Origin: Thermodesulfobacteriales bacterium
GTDB taxonomy: Bacteria; Desulfobacterota; Thermodesulfobacteria; Thermodesulfobacteriales; Thermodesulfatatoraceae
NCBI GenBank assembly: GCA_026988575.1
Contig: JALSKZ010000079.1
Coordinates: forward strand, 1 to 32,843
Reading direction: 5' to 3'
DNA length: 32,843 nt
The notes under the pieces are model-generated. The model saw only the letters and a list, made by a program, of their open reading frames with translations, did no database searches and was not told the origin of the DNA. Shown here piece after piece: positions 11,241-32,115 of the stretch; positions within the stretch are counted from its first letter, which is position 1, and the number at the start of each line of letters is the position of its first letter. Both the position numbers and the translations under genes were made by a program.

Positions 11241-11853
11241 GCCTTATCTCCTCCCAAGAGATCTTTCCCGCCCGGACAAGCCTTGGCTCAGGAGTAGTGA
11301 GATCCACAATGGTAGAAGGCTTCCCTCCGCCGGTAGGACCAGCATCTAAGATAAGGTCTACTCCGGGTAACATCTCGGCCACCTCTGAGGCCTCTACGGC
11401 AGGAGGAAAGCCACTTAGGTTAGCGCTTGTACCGGTAATAGGAGCCCTAAAAAGGCACGAAAGTCGGGTAGGGAGGGGATGTGAAGAAAACCTAACGGCT
11501 ATAGTACCCGTGGCTGCGGTCAGTTCTACCGGCAGATGGCGCTGGGCCTTAAAGATCAAAGTAAGCGGCCCGGGCCAGAACCGAGCTATTAAAGTCTTTG
11601 CCAAAGGAGGGACCTCTTTTACCAAAAGCGAGAGCATCTCCAACTTGCCAATGAGCACCAGGATTGGTTTTTGGACAGGTCGTTTTTTGAGGACAAAAAG
11701 TTTTTTCAGGGCCCTGGGAGAGAAGGGATCCACCGCAAGGCCGTAAAAGGTCTCGGTAGGTAAGGCCACTACTCCATGGTCTTTAAGCACGGAAACGGCC
11801 CTCTCTAAACAAACAGAGGGCCGTTTAGAATCTACCTTTATGATGTGTGACAT
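11182..11853 (-). CDS. tsaC: L-threonylcarbamoyladenylate synthase (Sua5/YrdC family)
   Basis: Makes threonylcarbamoyl-AMP from threonine, bicarbonate and ATP, the first step of t6A37 tRNA modification. The 223-residue protein has the family pattern GVVALPTETFYGLAVDP near the N-terminus, the nucleotide-binding LKKRPVQKPILVLI, WPGPLTLIF, TIAVRFSSHP and TSANLSG, ending in the STIVDLT / LVRAGKIS strand. There is no long Sua5 C-terminal domain, so it is the short YrdC/TsaC type. The ATG overlaps the purD-purE stop by one base (TAATG), a clear sign of translational coupling. The last ~14 residues are basic and Gly/Pro-rich and overlap the pilD 3' end on the other strand. Confidence 0.93.
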   Translation of the reverse strand: MSHIIKVDSKRPSVCLERAVSVLKDHGVVALPTETFYGLAVDPFSPRALKKLFVLKKRPVQKPILVLIGKLEMLSLLVKEVPPLAKTLIARFWPGPLTLIFKAQRHLPVELTAATGTIAVRFSSHPLPTRLSCLFRAPITGTSANLSGFPPAVEASEVAEMLPGVDLILDAGPTGGGKPSTIVDLTTPEPRLVRAGKISWEEIRLIGQTKSRRIGPPPGDKTR

Positions 11854-13580
11854 TACTTACACGCCATTTTTTCGCGATATCTTTTAAGCCGTTTAGCCAA
11901 ATCTTCCTGGGAAAGGGCCAATATTTCCAAGGCCAAAAAGGCTGCGTTTTTGGCCCCGTTTATGGCCACAGTGGCCACAGGTACCCCCGGAGGCATTTGC
12001 ACCGTAGAAAGTAGGGCGTCAAGACCTCCCAAACTCCCCGCCGCAATAGGTACCCCTATGACCGGAAGAGTAGATTCCGAAGCCAAGGCCCCGGCCAGGT
12101 GTGCAGCAAGCCCAGCCCCGGCAATAATTACTTTGAGGCCCCTTTTTTCTGCCTCGCGGGCAAACTGCCGCACCTTTTCGGGCTGGCGATGGGCCGAAGC
12201 AACCAATACCTCGTAGGGTACGTCAAACTGGGTCAATATTTCCTCCGCCCCTTTCATTACTTCAGCATCTGATTTACTGCCCATAAGTACCGCTACTACT
12301 GGGGGACGAAGGTGTCTCAAGGCTTTGGCGCCAATATCTGTGCGATAATAAACCCCTTCCCAAGAGATCTTTTCTACCGCTTTATAGGCCCTTGTTATGG
12401 CCTCGGGGATATCTTTACCCAGGGCAGTAACCCCAAGGACTCTACCACCGGCCGTAACAAACTGCCGTCCCTTCCGGGCCGTACCAGCGTGGAAGACCTT
12501 GACGTCTTTCATTCGAGCCACCTGGGCCAGCCCTTTAATGGGCTTTCCTTTCTCATATTTACCCGGATAACCTTTGCTCGCCATGACCACACACACCGCG
12601 GCCCTATCGTCTACCTCTAATTGTTTTTCCGCCAAAGTACCCTCTATTGAAGCCTGGATTAGCTCGGCCAGATCACTTTTGAGGCGCATCATCAAGGGCT
12701 GACACTCTGGATCCCCAAAACGACAATTAAACTCTAATACGTAAGGTTTACCCTCCCTGATCATGAGCCCGGCATAGAGGACCCCTTGGTAAGGAACGCC
12801 TTCCTGGGCCAAACCCCGGATAACAGGGCCCATGATGGTATCCATAATTTCTTGCGCTAACGACTCTGTCACCACCGGCGCTGGAGAATAGGCCCCCATC
12901 CCTCCGGTATTAGGCCCTTTATCTCCGTCTAAGAGGGGCTTGTGATCCTGCGAGGTAGGAAGAGGGAGTATAGTCTGTCCATCGGTGATCACCATAAAAG
13001 AGGCCTCTTCTCCCTCTAAACAATCCTCCACGATAAGGCGTTTACCAGCCTCTCCAAAGACCTTTTCGACCATAATTTTGTGTACAGCCTCGCGGGCCTC
13101 ATCTAAACTTCGACACACAATAACCCCTTTTCCCGCAGCCAAACCATCGGCCTTTACCACAATAGGGGCTCCCTTCTTTTCAATATAGTCCAAGGCCTCC
13201 TCGGGCTGTTCAAATACCGCAAAATCAGCCGTAGGGACACCGTATTTACGCATTAGCTCCTTGGCAAAAACCTTACTCCCTTCGATGAGGGCCGCCTTAG
13301 CTCGAGGCCCAAAAATGCGCAACCCCCTTTCCTGGAAAAAATCCACAATACCTCGCACCAAAGGATCTTCAGGACCTACCACGGTGAGATCAATACCTTC
13401 TTGCTGCACAAGCTCGGCTAAGGCCTCAAAATCGTCTGCCCTAATGGGCCTACAATCGGCCTCTAAAGCTATGCCGGCATTGCCTGGGGCACAAAATACC
13501 TTTTCTACCAAGGGGCTTTGGGCTAATTTCCAGCACAGGGCATGCTCCCTACCTCCACTTCCTATTACTAAGACCTTCAT
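11853..13580 (-). CDS. purDE: PurD-PurE fusion: GAR synthetase plus N5-CAIR mutase
   Basis: One 575-residue frame joins two purine enzymes. Residues 1-424 are phosphoribosylamine-glycine ligase: [14 protein letters not shown] at the N-terminus, the ATP-grasp loop [13 protein letters not shown] at 143-155, [20 protein letters not shown] at 210-229, and [11 protein letters not shown] at 282-292. Residues 427-575 are a full-length PurE: GSKSD at 434-438, the active-site SAHR at 462-465, and [11 protein letters not shown], then [11 protein letters not shown]. The linker is only a few residues (LRHLRPP). Both halves keep their active-site signatures, so both should work. Class I mutase (needing PurK) versus class II carboxylase cannot be decided here. 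It is upstream of and coupled to tsaC, and divergent from the HDOD gene. purD-purE fusion is not the usual arrangement; separate genes are the norm. Confidence 0.95.
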
Positions 13581-19135: not shown

Positions 19136-20005
19136 CTAATCGTCTTTTTTAAATAATTCTAAGGCCTTCTTATAAAGTTGGGTCCGGGGGAGACCAAAAA
19201 ATTTGGCGGCCTCCTTGGCGGCGTCTTTTATGCTTAGCCCCTGTGCTCGGGCCTCTTTCAAAAACGCAGCTATATCCTCCTCGCTAGGGATCGATTCACA
19301 GGCCGAGGCCCCGGCCACCACCAACGTAAATTCACCTCGAGGTTCCTTTTGTTGAAAATGGTAATACAACTCTTTGATGGTAGTGCGTAAATACTGCTCG
19401 TGTTTTTTGGTCATTTCCCGCGCCATAAAGACCTCGCGGTCGCCAAACATTTCTAAAAGATCAACCAATGTGGCCAAAAGGCGATGAGGGGCCTCGTAAA
19501 ATACCAAGGGCACCTTTATAAAGCGCAGTTCCTCCAGACGCTTTATCCTCAAGGAGGCCTTAGAGGGCAAAAAACCCACGAAAAAAAAACCTTCCCCTAT
19601 ATCAAAGCCCGCACAGCTCAAAGCAGTAATAACCGCCGAAGGGCCAGGAACAGGACGTACTTTGAGCCCAGCCCTGTGTATCTCCGCGATTAAATAAGCC
19701 CCTGGATCAGAAATGGCCGGAGTACCCGCCTCGCTTACCAAGGCCACTGCTGCCCCACGCCGTAAGGAATCCACCAACCCTCTTGCCCGCTGTTTTTCAT
19801 TGTGCTCGTGGAGAGAAATTAGTTTGGGACCTTTGATCTTATAATAGCTCAATAACTTGGCAGTAGTACGGGTATCCTCAGCAACAATAATGTCTACAGC
19901 TCGTAAAGTGCGTAAGGCCCTCAGAGTTATATCTTCTAAATTACCCAAAGGGGTTGCCACCACATAAAGCGTGGCGGGCTCAACTGCGGGCCTGTTTCCA
20001 GACAT
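19136..20005 (-). CDS. rsmI: 16S rRNA (cytidine1402-2'-O)-methyltransferase RsmI
   Basis: SAM-dependent methyltransferase acting on C1402 of 16S rRNA in the decoding centre. The 289-residue protein shows the tetrapyrrole-methylase-like fold signatures LYVVATPLGNLEDITLRA, VAEDTRTTAKLL, VSEAGTPAISDPG and VPGPSAVITAL. These are followed by GFLPSK and FYEAPHRLL, which are typical of RsmI rather than of cobalamin methylases. The C-terminus has the small helix-turn-helix-like domain SIKDAAKEAAKFFGLPRTQLYKKAL. The ATG overlaps the upstream PIP-synthase-like gene by 26 bp, so the two are translationally linked. Confidence 0.96.
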   Translation of the reverse strand: MSGNRPAVEPATLYVVATPLGNLEDITLRALRTLRAVDIIVAEDTRTTAKLLSYYKIKGPKLISLHEHNEKQRARGLVDSLRRGAAVALVSEAGTPAISDPGAYLIAEIHRAGLKVRPVPGPSAVITALSCAGFDIGEGFFFVGFLPSKASLRIKRLEELRFIKVPLVFYEAPHRLLATLVDLLEMFGDREVFMAREMTKKHEQYLRTTIKELYYHFQQKEPRGEFTLVVAGASACESIPSEEDIAAFLKEARAQGLSIKDAAKEAAKFFGLPRTQLYKKALELFKKDD

Positions 20006-20570
20006 GAAGGACCCTCTGCAAGGCCGTAAAATACGTAAATACAGCTAAAATAACCAAAACAGGAAGGATTATCCGAAAGAGGAGCCCGATAGTGAGGATG
20101 ACCAACCGCTCAAAGCGGGTTAGGAGCCCTATTTTACACTCAAACCCCAAGGCCTCGGCCCGGGCACGGGTATAACTTACCATTAAAGACCCCGTTAGAG
20201 CCAAAAAAGCAATTATAACGGCAAAATAAGCCTCATTGTGCTGCAAATAAAAGATAAGGCCGGTAAAAATAGCTATTTCGGAAAAACGGTCCAAAGTAGA
20301 GTCTAAAAAGGCCCCGAATTTGGTCTGACGCCCACTACGGCGCGCCAGCAACCCGTCTACAGCATCAAGGGGGCCAAAGAGAATCAGCAAAAACCCGGCC
20401 CCTTTTGGGTAGCCCAAGGCTAACACTACCCCCACTACGACACAGCCCAAAAAGGCACAAATAGTCACCACATTGGGGGGTACCCGACAGCGGGCCAAAA
20501 AATCAGCAATAGGCACGAGGAAAGGCTTACTCCATGCTCTTACACGATCGGTTACCGTAAAAGAAGACAT
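19980..20570 (-). CDS. CDP-alcohol phosphatidyltransferase, phosphatidylinositol-phosphate synthase-like
   Basis: 196-residue membrane enzyme with about five to six hydrophobic segments and the complete CDP-alcohol phosphotransferase signature: D69-x2-D72-G73-x2-A76-R77-x8-G86-x3-D90-x3-D94. The part after the signature (SYTRARAEALGFE, then LTRFERLVILTIG) resembles mycobacterial PIP synthase and archaeal archaetidylinositol-phosphate synthase more than PgsA, in the region known to bind inositol phosphate. The likely reaction is CDP-diacylglycerol (or a CDP-ether lipid) plus inositol 1-phosphate giving phosphatidylinositol phosphate and CMP. This fits the presence of ino1 at 5607. Phosphatidylglycerophosphate synthase remains an alternative. 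It heads the rsmI-mutS-amidase run and is next to a mobile-like repeat. Confidence 0.8.
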   Translation of the reverse strand: MSSFTVTDRVRAWSKPFLVPIADFLARCRVPPNVVTICAFLGCVVVGVVLALGYPKGAGFLLILFGPLDAVDGLLARRSGRQTKFGAFLDSTLDRFSEIAIFTGLIFYLQHNEAYFAVIIAFLALTGSLMVSYTRARAEALGFECKIGLLTRFERLVILTIGLLFRIILPVLVILAVFTYFTALQRVLHVWKQARS

Positions 20571-20760
20571 AATCGTCTCGCTAGATAATCGCTCCTTATG
20601 GGCCCGTCAACTTTTTAGTTACCTTTTACCAAAAAATAATCCGGTAGATAAGCCCCTTTTATTCACTTTCTGCTTACAGAAGAGACCTTTAAAACGAGAC
20701 CTTTGCAAAACACCTTTTCTTAAGGTCCGTTCAAGCAACCGTTCGGGTTTTTTGTAATGA

Positions 20761-20831
20761 GGCCGGTACGATCAATGCTAGAACTCGGGCTCCAGGCCCA
20801 AGGATCCGTACGATCTGTACCGGCCTTTTTT
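20761..20831 (+). terminator. Terminator-like hairpin inside the MITE-like element
   Basis: GGCCGGTACGATC at 20761-20773 pairs with GATCTGTACCGGCC at 20812-20825 with a single extra base, forming a stem of about 13 bp. It is followed directly by TTTTTT and a further T-rich tract. The ~38-base loop contains a smaller GGGCTCCAGGCCC-type dyad. It would act on transcripts moving rightwards, away from the rsmI operon and towards the protease gene. Confidence 0.5.
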
Positions 20832-20871
20832 CTTTTCATGTTTTACACCTTACCATGGATTCAATATACAA

Positions 20872-20914
20872 GGATCTGTTCCCATTTTTCGAAACGAAAA
20901 ATAGGAACGGATCC
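20872..20914. repeat. Near-perfect 20-bp stem palindrome inside the MITE-like element
   Basis: GGATCTGTTCCCATTTTTCG at 20872-20891 and CGAAAAATAGGAACGGATCC at 20895-20914 pair over 20 positions with one mismatch and one G-T pair around an AAA loop. The arms also share GGATCCG with the neighbouring hairpin. Confidence 0.75.
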
Positions 20915-21084
20915 CTTGCGGTTGTGCTTGCAACACTGATCCCGATGATTTTGCAAAGGTTTCTAAAACATAAATAAAGACGGGCTTTGATCCGGATTTT
21001 GCAAGGGGTAAAAGATACTTGGGCCTTTAAGTAATTTTTAAGGGAACTCCTTGACAAAGTAATCTAAAAAAACCCAACAAGTGT

Positions 21085-21154: not shown

Positions 21155-23794
21155 ATGAAAAGGCATATTCTTATCTTTTTGGTTGTTCTGGCAAGCGTAT
21201 TATGGGGGAAGGCCATGGCTATGGAGATTGCTCCGGGTATCTACCGTACAGTGTTAGACAATGGTTTGGTCCTCATTGTAGAGGAGAATCATCGCGCCCC
21301 AGTAGTAGCAGTGCAGGTCTGGGTCAAGGCCGGCAGTGTTTACGAAACAGACAAAGAGGCTGGAATTACCCACCTCATTGAACATATGATCTTTAAAGGC
21401 ACCAAAAAACGCGGCCCAGGTGAAATTGCCACCCTCATAGAGAGCATGGGGGGCTCCATTAACGCCTTCACCTCCTACGACTACACCTGCTACCACGTCA
21501 CAGGCCCCAAAGAAATATTAGACACGGCCTTAGATGTACTCTCTGATGCCGTGTTTAATTCTGTGTTTGACCCCAAGGAACTTGAGCGAGAAAAACAGGT
21601 GGTCTTGGAAGAGATGCGCATGCGGGAGGATCAACCTTCTGTAGCCCTGGCTGAAGCGGTTATGAATAAGGCCTACCAAAAATTTCCCTATCGTCGACCT
21701 ATAATAGGCTATCCAGAGACCGTAAAAAGTTTTACCCGTCAAGACATCCTCAAATATATGGCCAGACGTTACCGGCCGTGTCAAATGGCGGTGGTTATTG
21801 TAGGAGACCTAGACCCAGAGAGCACCTTGGCCAAGGCCGCAGAATTTTTTGGGCACTACGGCAAAAAGCCCCCCGAAGAGGTCAAATTTCCCGAGGAACC
21901 GCCCAAGACAGCGGCAGAGTTGGTCACCCTAAATCGTGACGTGCAAGAGGGCTATTTCCAAGTGGCCCTTCCCGGCCCCAACCTTCTCTCTCCCGATGCC
22001 CCGGTAATGGATGTAATAGCCGCTATCTTAGGCGAAGGAGAGTCCAGCAGGCTGTACCGCAAACTGGTACGTAACGAAAACGTGGCTCACACCGTCTCGG
22101 CCTACGATTTTACCCCTATGGGCCCGGGGTTATTTGAGGTCATGGGCACTGCCTCTCCAGAAAACCTGCGTGCCGCCCTAAAAGAAAGCCTGGTAGAGAT
22201 CTTTCGCCTAAAATACGAACCCGTACTGCCTGAAGAATTAAAAAAGGCCAAGGTTATGGTAGCGGCAGACTTTGTCTATAGCCGAGAGACCATGCAGGGA
22301 GAAGCTCGCAAACTCGGCATATTTGAAATGCTTGCTCAAGATCCCCTAAAATCTCGAGCCTACTACGAGGCCGTAAAGAAAGTCACGGCCGAACAAATAC
22401 GCGAAGTAGCCAATAAGTATTTTTCCAAGAAAGCGGTAGTAGCAGGCCTCTTGGCTGCCGGAGCCGACAAGATATTAACCCCCGAGGAAATTCAATCGCT
22501 GGTGGACGATGCTGATCTTCAGGCCTCAGGTATTGAGCCTGGTTCCAACGTCTGGATCGTCCCCACCATCCGCAAAAAACTACCCAACGGGCTAACCGTA
22601 TTGATTACTCCCCAGAAAGATGTACCCACGGTGGCCATGACCCTGATTTTTCCCGGGGGGTTGCGTTACGAGACCAAGCAGACCAATGGTCTATTCCGCA
22701 CCATGACTACTTGCTGGACCAGGGGGACAGATCAATACCCTGCCGAGGTTTTGGCCACCAAAGTAGAGTCCATGGGGGGAGAGATAAAAGGATTTGCGGG
22801 GCGCAACACCTTTGGCCTCCAAGCCGAATTCCTGGCCGATTATTTTGCAGACGCCTTAAAGCTCTTTGCCGACGTGACCCTTCACCCCACCTTTTCACCC
22901 GAAGAACTTGCTAAGGCCCGTCCTGAACTGCTGGCGGCTATTTCCCGCCAAGAAGACGATCCCTTACAACTGGCTATACGGGAATTTTATCGGCTCCTTT
23001 TTGCACCACATCCTTACGGGCTAAATATTTTGGGAGACCCCAAGGTTATCCAGAGTCTCACGAACACCGATTTAAAAAAGGCCTATCACCGCTATGTACG
23101 TCCAGACGAAGGGGTATTGGCCATTGTAGGAGACGTAGACCCAGAGAAGACCATGGCCTTGTTACAAAAGCTTTTCTCTTCCTGGAAGGCCCCAGAGGTA
23201 AAACCTCCGCAAGACAAGGCCCCTGAACCACTATTTGAGCCCCGTATTTCTAGCATCTCTTTAGATAGAGAACAGGTCCACATCATCCTTGGCTTTCGTA
23301 CAGTGGGGATCTCTTCGGCCGACCGTTTTCCCCTAGAAGTGCTTAATGCCGTACTTGCCGGGCAAGGGGGGAGGCTTTTTAAGGTCTTAAGAGACCAGGA
23401 GGCCCTGGCCTATTCGGTGACCTCTTTTCTCACCTTTGGGGTAAATACCGGTGGTTTAGGCTTTTACATTGCTACAGCCCCCGAAAAGAAGAAAAAGGCC
23501 CTGGAAGACCTGTGGAGAGAAATTGCACGCATAAGCCAAGAGGGCGCCTCGGCCCAAGAACTTGAACGGGCCAAGAGCTGGCTCATCGGACACTACCAGA
23601 CAGGACTTCAAACCAATAGCGCCCAAGCCATGGAACAGGCCTTAAATGAAGTATTGGGGCTGGGATACAACTTTGGATTACGCTATATCCAAAAAATCCA
23701 AGACATTACCCCTGAACAAGTGCAACAGGTGGCCCAAAAATATCTCCAAAACCAGCCCTATGTCCTGGTTACAGTAGGGCCTGGAGGCCCCTAA
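21155..23794 (+). CDS. Secreted M16-family zinc protease, two-repeat form
   Basis: 879 residues. Residues 1-22 are a signal peptide (basic start, hydrophobic core, cleavage near AMA), so it acts in the periplasm or outer membrane. It contains two M16 halves. The first (about 28-440) has the inverted zinc motif HLIEH (H73, E76, H77) and the distal ligand Glu about 75 residues later in VVLEEMRMRED. The second half (about 465-875) has the same fold pattern (KLPNGLTVLITPQKDVPTVAM) but lacks the HxxEH motif: the equivalent segment reads NGLFRTMTTCWTRGT. One active and one inactive half in a single chain is a known M16 arrangement. GAAGAGGCG lies ahead of the ATG. Its stop overlaps the small membrane protein gene on the other strand. 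Confidence 0.95.
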   Translation: MKRHILIFLVVLASVLWGKAMAMEIAPGIYRTVLDNGLVLIVEENHRAPVVAVQVWVKAGSVYETDKEAGITHLIEHMIFKGTKKRGPGEIATLIESMGGSINAFTSYDYTCYHVTGPKEILDTALDVLSDAVFNSVFDPKELEREKQVVLEEMRMREDQPSVALAEAVMNKAYQKFPYRRPIIGYPETVKSFTRQDILKYMARRYRPCQMAVVIVGDLDPESTLAKAAEFFGHYGKKPPEEVKFPEEPPKTAAELVTLNRDVQEGYFQVALPGPNLLSPDAPVMDVIAAILGEGESSRLYRKLVRNENVAHTVSAYDFTPMGPGLFEVMGTASPENLRAALKESLVEIFRLKYEPVLPEELKKAKVMVAADFVYSRETMQGEARKLGIFEMLAQDPLKSRAYYEAVKKVTAEQIREVANKYFSKKAVVAGLLAAGADKILTPEEIQSLVDDADLQASGIEPGSNVWIVPTIRKKLPNGLTVLITPQKDVPTVAMTLIFPGGLRYETKQTNGLFRTMTTCWTRGTDQYPAEVLATKVESMGGEIKGFAGRNTFGLQAEFLADYFADALKLFADVTLHPTFSPEELAKARPELLAAISRQEDDPLQLAIREFYRLLFAPHPYGLNILGDPKVIQSLTNTDLKKAYHRYVRPDEGVLAIVGDVDPEKTMALLQKLFSSWKAPEVKPPQDKAPEPLFEPRISSISLDREQVHIILGFRTVGISSADRFPLEVLNAVLAGQGGRLFKVLRDQEALAYSVTSFLTFGVNTGGLGFYIATAPEKKKKALEDLWREIARISQEGASAQELERAKSWLIGHYQTGLQTNSAQAMEQALNEVLGLGYNFGLRYIQKIQDITPEQVQQVAQKYLQNQPYVLVTVGPGGP

Positions 23795-31405: not shown

Positions 31406-31798
31406 ATGCTTAAGCTGATCTTAGGAAGTAGTCTATTTTTCTTGTGTTTTGTCTCGGCTGTATATGGTGCCCATATCCATTTTGAGGAATTTTACCTAAA
31501 AGATGTCTCCTTTAATCAAAATAATAATTCTTACCAATGGACCTTTGACCTAGATAAAGACCTTCTTTACCTCTGGAACCTCGATGACGCACAGGTCCAA
31601 AACCAATCGCAAGATTTTGTTACCATTACTCCCAATGAAGACGAGAACCATTTTACACTGTTACCGAATTGGTTCGAGGGGACAATGCTTCCTGAAAACA
31701 ACCTACACCACGCCTATCTCACCATGCGCTTTACCAGCCAAAGTGGCTGCTGTGGTGGAGGGGGGTGCTCTACTCAGGCTCAGGCTTCTTTGTACTAG
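31406..31798 (+). CDS. Exported PEP-CTERM protein, 5' part (frame broken at a G6 run)
   Basis: 130 residues as read. Residues 1-21 form a signal peptide (LKLILGSSLFFLCFVSAVYG, then AH). The mature part is acidic and Asn/Gln-rich (FDLDKDLLYLWNLDD) and resembles the beta-sandwich ectodomain of surface proteins; I do not recognise a named domain. After CCGGGG the frame continues for ten unconvincing residues (CSTQAQASLY) and stops. Shifting by -1 at the G6 tract (31760-31765) joins it to the frame ending at 32115 and gives a 236-residue protein with a normal PEP-CTERM end. The two parts are therefore one gene. GGGGAGGGG lies ahead of the ATG, and a sigma-54 promoter lies upstream. If not corrected by slippage, the product would be secreted but unsorted. 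Confidence 0.8.
   Translation: MLKLILGSSLFFLCFVSAVYGAHIHFEEFYLKDVSFNQNNNSYQWTFDLDKDLLYLWNLDDAQVQNQSQDFVTITPNEDENHFTLLPNWFEGTMLPENNLHHAYLTMRFTSQSGCCGGGGCSTQAQASLY
31760..31765 (+). other. G6 homopolymer at the frame break
   Basis: Six consecutive G read as GGG GGG in the signal-peptide frame. Reading the last G again (-1), or having a seventh G, opens the frame through the PEP-CTERM signal. It could be a sequencing or assembly error, a contingency (phase-variable) tract, or a slippage site. Confidence 0.7.
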
Positions 31799-32115
31799 AC
31801 ACCTCTTCCTACTGGTCTGGAACGGTAAACCCAGGTAGTATTTTCAATCCTATCGACGTCTATACTTATATGGAAAACGACCACAAACTAATAGTCCAAC
31901 TCATATTGGACTCCTGTAGCAGCGGGTGTAGCGGCGGATGTGGATGCGGCGGCGGATGTAACTGTTGTGATTGTGGCTTTACAGTAGATTGGGTCAAACT
32001 CTCTGGTTGTTTTGATTGCACAACCTGTGACCCTATTCCAGAACCCTCAACCCTAATCTTAGCCGGCCTGGGCCTATTGGCCCTATCTAGAATAAAGCGT
32101 GGCCGACTTTTCTAG
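31765..32115 (+). CDS. Exported PEP-CTERM protein, 3' part with Cys/Gly-rich region and sorting signal
   Basis: Continuation of the gene that starts at 31406, in the -1 frame; the GTG at 31765 is unlikely to be a real start because it lies inside the G tract. It encodes FFVLDTSSYWSG, then a Cys/Gly-rich run with eight Cys between residues 51 and 70 of this frame (CSSGCSGGCGC and CNCCDC). Next come GFTVDWVKLSGC with CxxC pairs, and finally IPEPSTLILAGLGLLAL plus the basic tail SRIKRGR. That end is a textbook PEP-CTERM signal: the PEP motif, one membrane helix, and Arg/Lys. An exosortase would recognise it and anchor or release the protein at the cell surface, after export by Sec. Exosortase itself is not in the window. 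The Cys cluster could bind metal or form disulfides. Confidence 0.85.
   Translation: MLYSGSGFFVLDTSSYWSGTVNPGSIFNPIDVYTYMENDHKLIVQLILDSCSSGCSGGCGCGGGCNCCDCGFTVDWVKLSGCFDCTTCDPIPEPSTLILAGLGLLALSRIKRGRLF

Follow-up and report, generated by a model that had tools for sequence, protein, structure and literature searches.

The element in the window and its surroundings

The window analyzed here (32,843 nucleotides in total) carries a 268-bp element at positions 20696 to 20963, flanked by a gene for a CDP-alcohol phosphatidyltransferase (19980 to 20570, minus strand; PF01066), which is oriented like the genes down to mutS, and by one for an M16 peptidase (21155 to 23794, plus strand; PF00675/PF05193). 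Its two 15-bp ends, GAGACCTTTGCAAAA on the left (20696 to 20710, plus strand) and TTTTGCAAAGGTTTC on the right (20949 to 20963, minus strand), are 93% complementary, and the hexamer TAAAAC stands at both borders (20690 to 20695 and 20964 to 20969). No open reading frame of at least 100 amino acids covers the element, and two strong hairpins lie within it: one pairs 20760 to 20769 with 20817 to 20826 and is followed by a T run, and the other pairs 20872 to 20891 with 20895 to 20914. The terminal inverted repeats (TIRs), the hairpins, and the lack of coding capacity had all been recognized in the initial annotation and were reproduced here. Elsewhere in the window, a single open reading frame (11853 to 13580) seems, by eye, to join PurD-like and PurE-like sequences.

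Comparison with other copies divides the interior into four parts. The left arm (20711 to 20744, plus strand) is common to the 131-bp copies and carries the CAAGCAACCGTTC variant that L016 and L021 also have. It is followed by an insert (20745 to 20868, plus strand) that the 131-bp copies lack, by a 43-bp palindrome (20872 to 20914), and by the right arm (20915 to 20948, plus strand), which starts with CTTGCGGTTGTGCTTGCAAC. The insert sits in the left arm and adds 137 bp, including a repeated CAAGGATCYGTTC joint, which is why the window copy measures 268 bp instead of the typical 131 bp. Its modules begin at CAAGGATCCGT-like motifs, which are common to the insert joints and spaced 67 and 70 bp apart. 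Parts of the insert recur in the same genome on contigs C49 and C35 and in tandem in genome G004 (C10 and C22), and nearly all of it is found in G006 (C72), where it adjoins the right half of a MITE. Thus, the 268-bp unit of the initial annotation is correct as the size of the window copy, but the usual unit is 131 bp, and the insert had gone unnoticed.

The first hairpin, formed by GGCCGGTAC and GTACCGGCC together with the T run (20760 to 20831), lies inside the insert and is terminator-like on the plus strand. The scanner's terminator rule called no terminator in the element; this hairpin is beyond the scanner's loop limit. A candidate promoter, the only match in the element (minus strand; 0.7 expected), was dropped.

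A multicopy family with target duplications

In its own genome (G000; 2.01 Mb in 88 contigs), DNA of the element is found at dozens of related places distributed over dozens of contigs. The family's 15-bp ends, GARACCTTTGCAAAA, occur there 34 + 30 times with at most one mismatch, compared with 2 + 0 times for the reversed pattern, so the ends of the window copy are not a product of chance. The genome search proposed in the initial annotation showed the unit to be multicopy: from 39 stretches plus the window, we obtained 28 complete copies of 78 to 268 bp, window copy included, and 14 of these measure exactly 131 bp. Across the order Thermodesulfobacteriales, the exact TIR is present in 13 of 41 genomes. 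Two copies with identical immediate flanks, L028 (G000, C14) and L063 (G004, C2), come from two genera, reflecting a shared insertion or transfer.

Flank identity over 5 bp averaged 0.63 among the 28 complete copies, compared with 0.38 in a control in which the flanks of different copies were paired. Exact duplications of 5 bp border 8 of the 28 copies (0.3 expected), those of 6 bp border two (TAAAAC of the window copy and that of L034; 0.1 expected), and one copy has an exact 7-bp duplication. Given that 6 bp match exactly in only 2 of the 28 copies, the hexamer of the window is real but of the minority type; the TAAAAC repeat of the initial annotation therefore stands, while the family as a whole usually duplicates 5 bp. 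Among nine relatives from the same family of organisms, the gene junction of the window is absent from all nine, and each of them has another gene upstream of the M16 gene, leaving no orthologous empty site. In G004 (L060, C22), a homologue of the window's CDP-alcohol phosphatidyltransferase gene has MITEs directly upstream and a different gene beside it.

The sequences just outside the element resemble further ends of the same family. On the left, GAGACCTTTAAAAC (20682 to 20695, plus strand) aligned with the TIR at a gapped score of 11, which was reached in 0 of 200 shuffles; on the right, the end of TTTGATCCGGATTTTGCAAGGGG (20970 to 21010, plus strand) scored 9 (p 0.01). Gapped scores of at least 9 were found in 4 of the 56 flanks of the 28 copies (0.46 expected), and an ungapped test for extra ends was weak (at least 10 matches in 11 of 56 flanks, about 4.7 expected). 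When the flanks were joined with one TAAAAC, the resulting 55 bp resembled the 55-bp copy L070 with a score of 13.5, compared with a maximum of 7.5 in 2,000 shuffles; 29 of 6,036 sliding windows of G000 loci reached this score. It thus looks as if the window element was inserted into the remnant of an older, decayed copy, and both the extra degenerate ends and the nested insertion suggested in the initial annotation find support in these scores and in the likeness to L070.

Insertion sequences with the same ends

Transposase remnants adjoin the same end at L062 (G004) and L077 (G010). Through relatives of these remnants, we found eight loci at which an insertion sequence (IS) of about 1.2 kb retains both ends, either intact (L131, L143, L151, L158, L144, and L132) or broken (L135 and L146); the intact ISs occur in G003, G004, and G021. 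All three transposases tested against NF033581 scored 243 to 248 bits (cutoff, 140), and both of those scanned with Pfam contain DDE_Tnp_1 and DUF772. Exact duplications of 5 to 6 bp border three of the eight IS copies (TCTTCC at L158, TAATC at L132, and a run of A at L143), and none was found at the other five. A duplication of 5 to 6 bp is not known to be the usual length for IS5 subgroups.

The assembled G000 contains pieces of the parent IS and no intact gene for it. On contig C15, a TIR and the start of the transposase gene run off the contig, and C42 carries a 93%-identical IS fragment with a right end of the IS type, TTATTCAAAGGTCTC. Because relatives carry intact ISs of about 1.2 kb that combine the same ends with an IS5-family DDE transposase, we firmly assign the window element to the IS5-family MITEs, in agreement with the initial annotation, whose MITE reading is borne out by the copies, the target duplications, and the ISs with the same ends; the full-length ISs it had proposed to look for are intact in relatives. 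The closest known systems on this side are the IS5-family ISs of the NF033581 type (transpos_IS5_4), from which the window element differs by its lack of a coding part. The ends also differ: most intact ISs have GAGACCTTTGAAWAA as their right end, whereas both ends of the MITE are of the left-end type.

The same ends also enclose other DNA. At L071 to L074 (G003 and G005), elements of 219 to 354 bp have the same TIRs around an interior that is a different dispersed repeat. In G004, two facing TIRs about 1.08 kb apart (L061, 470 to 1551) enclose a gene, possibly a passenger, that resembles the PEP-CTERM-like protein encoded at 31406 to 32115 of the window, where the frame is apparently broken.

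The core palindrome is also a dispersed repeat

The second hairpin of the window element is the 43-bp palindrome GTTCCYATTTTTCGNNNCGAAAAATRGGAAC, with the core pattern GGATCYGTTCC..GGAACGGATCC. It is present at the same place in 23 of the 28 complete G000 copies and missing from five at the 4-mismatch level. With up to three mismatches, it has 38 sites in G000 (control, 0); with up to two, it has 98 in G004, 21 in G009, 8 in G006, and none in G003 or G005. For clustering, 109 sites were used (39 from G000, 49 from G004, 20 from G009, and 1 from G006), the totals above having been obtained with other patterns, stricter in the case of G000. Clustering of the flanks yielded several arm types, arms C and E among them, in mixed pairings. 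By eye, neither a GTAG nor a CGTC foot was found in the palindrome sites inspected. Loops occur in both orientations, and the mismatch at position 12 stands in one orientation more often than in the other.

IS5-type ends stand on both sides of 23/39, 18/49, and 6/20 examined sites in G000, G004, and G009, respectively. Three alternative explanations were weighed. First, the palindrome could simply be the own core of a plain IS5-family MITE, with solo palindromes being decayed MITEs. Its constant place in the complete copies fits this view, as does the single TIR kept at 5/39 sites in G000 and 16/49 in G004. However, neither kind of end is found at 6/39 sites in G000 and 11/49 in G004, and some palindromes have other arms (C and E); in G009, 8 of 20 lie between a second pair of inverted ends, TATTAMTGRGAGCAT. 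These ends delimit a second MITE-like family around the same palindrome (L255 and L264 to L269). The initial annotation was thus right in describing a palindromic element with hairpins but had missed that the core hairpin forms a repeat family of its own.

Second, repeat growth driven by slippage or hairpins could, without transposition, account for the copies and the duplications. Such events would be in keeping with the loops in both orientations and with the two 94-bp copies, L011 and L075 (G004), in which the palindrome is exactly missing and one GGATCC is left. Nevertheless, they sit poorly with copies spread over dozens of contigs, with the flanking duplications, and with an IS that has the same ends, and we regard this explanation of the family as very improbable, although slippage may still account for the loss of the palindrome.

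Third, the element could be a structured regulatory RNA or a leader of the M16 gene, a reading to which its strong fold (z of −7.55 for the whole element) and the preservation of the palindrome in many copies lend some appeal. Against it, the element is multicopy and lies in unrelated places, it was not found upstream of the M16 gene in any of the nine relatives, and no Rfam family came near its threshold. Moreover, base pairs are formed in 1,987 of 2,180 cells, compared with a mean of 1,986.9 after shuffling of columns. We therefore rejected the structured RNA, which is hardly credible. The initial annotation had contrasted its proposal with a single-copy RNA kept by compensatory changes and sharing its ends with no IS; what was found is a multicopy element whose ends are shared by ISs and whose pairing is no better than in the shuffles.

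RAYT-like genes are bordered by the palindrome or its half-sites

A Pfam scan for Y1_Tnp in six genomes gave two 53-bit matches, on C179 of G009 and C7 of G004. Both proteins are above the cutoff of PF01797, have 213 amino acids, and are 95% identical. The DNA of the two units, which look mobile, aligns over 796 nucleotides at 91% identity; the alignment begins within one palindrome and breaks off where another ends, with different surroundings, and the half-site GGATCCGTTCCTATTTTT lies directly 5' of the ATG. Three further, diverged genes, two of G002 (75 and 70%) and one of G008 (55%), were recovered by searching 14 genomes. While full palindromes border the gene in G004 and G009, half-sites are also found at both G002 genes and at that of G008; in all, related half-sites stand at or near the edges of five of five RAYT-like genes (0.1 expected per shuffled locus), compared with none of seven loci of the other Y1 type, that of G000 included. 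Four aligned RAYT-like proteins share NHVHF/L and RYIERNP, invariant or nearly so, which we take to be the catalytic motifs. Because the proteins score 67 bits with the NCBIfam RAYT model NF047646, below its 80-bit cutoff, we refer to the genes as RAYT-like. No relative in the PDB was found by sequence.

Inside the RAYT-like genes lies a further palindrome, AAAAATGGGATCNGATCCCATTTTT (25 bp, 20 to 24 positions self-complementary; L275 735 to 759, L276, L289, L294, and L290). Its reading phase in G008 differs from that in G009 and G004, though the flanking codons align, so that the DNA palindrome has been kept and the peptide has not.

G000 and G006 contain palindromes, and no RAYT-like gene was detected in either; the only Y1 gene of G000 is of another type, 28% identical, and without half-sites. 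Under the plain MITE explanation introduced above, the proximity of palindromes and RAYT-like genes would be a coincidence or a later insertion. However, the boundaries of the RAYT-like unit coincide with palindromes, and RAYT-like genes that have diverged still show half-sites. Together with the arms and ends described above, this makes the plain MITE an unlikely account. Instead, the core is likely a REP-like palindrome.

Discussion

Taken as a whole, the explanation that we consider highly probable is that the window holds an IS5-family MITE built around a separate REP-like palindrome, enlarged by a 137-bp insert, and lying within what remains of an earlier copy. Weighing against it are the lack of an intact transposase of either kind in the assembled G000 and of an orthologous empty site, the five IS copies with no exact 5- to 6-bp duplication and the length of these duplications, the RAYT model score below its cutoff, the lack of a PDB match and of a GTAG or CGTC foot, the palindromes of G000 and G006 with no RAYT-like gene detected, and the 29 sliding windows that equal the score of the joined flanks. 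The transposase of the IS would bind the GAGACCTTTGCAAAA ends and move the MITE in trans. The REP-like palindrome would have been captured once by the MITE and amplified with it afterwards, and the window copy would also have gained its insert, apparently through repeats joining at CAAGGATCCGT motifs, and have entered the older copy.

Several described systems combine some of these features. QMITE2 of Coxiella burnetii, as presented in PMC5896051, is a MITE of comparable size with a GTAG REP inside it (its REP content is also given in the review PMC10969869) and duplicates 7 to 11 bp, and its small versions resemble bare REPs; by comparison, the palindrome described here is 43 bp long, edged by GGATCC, and present in more than one MITE-like family. 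In REPtrons, according to the accounts of RAYT/TnpAREP in PMC6006769 and PMC8266576, the latter of which treats REP recognition, a Y1/HUH gene is likewise bordered by high-copy dispersed palindromes, and the half-sites vary with the gene. In contrast to these, the proteins found here are below the NCBIfam cutoff and the palindromes have no GTAG or CGTC foot, although PMC6006769 does describe REPtrons with atypical palindromes and atypical feet in some classes. GTAG-15 dimers in long palindromes of Anabaena variabilis (PMC3733652) are also REPs lying regularly inside another repeat; section 7 of that article does not give transposon ends or an IS partner for them.

It is tempting to speculate further that several unrelated MITE families have the RAYT-linked palindrome as a core that can be exchanged. 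Its HUH transposase, acting on single strands, might seed or remove this core at exactly GGATCC, and DDE transposases would carry core and arms to new sites, so that two systems would jointly build and spread the elements. We offer this wider idea tentatively and consider it possible rather than probable.

Our literature searches gave one unrelated paper on MITEs of Thermodesulfobacteria and no report, for this group, of a RAYT-like gene whose palindrome is edged by GGATCC. The family offers a concrete case in which the origin of MITE interiors is traceable, the same ends enclosing the RAYT-linked palindrome in G000, G004, and G009 but another dispersed repeat in G003 and G005. Finally, a RAYT-like unit that ends sharply at palindromes in each of two contexts bears on the question of whether REPtrons move as units.
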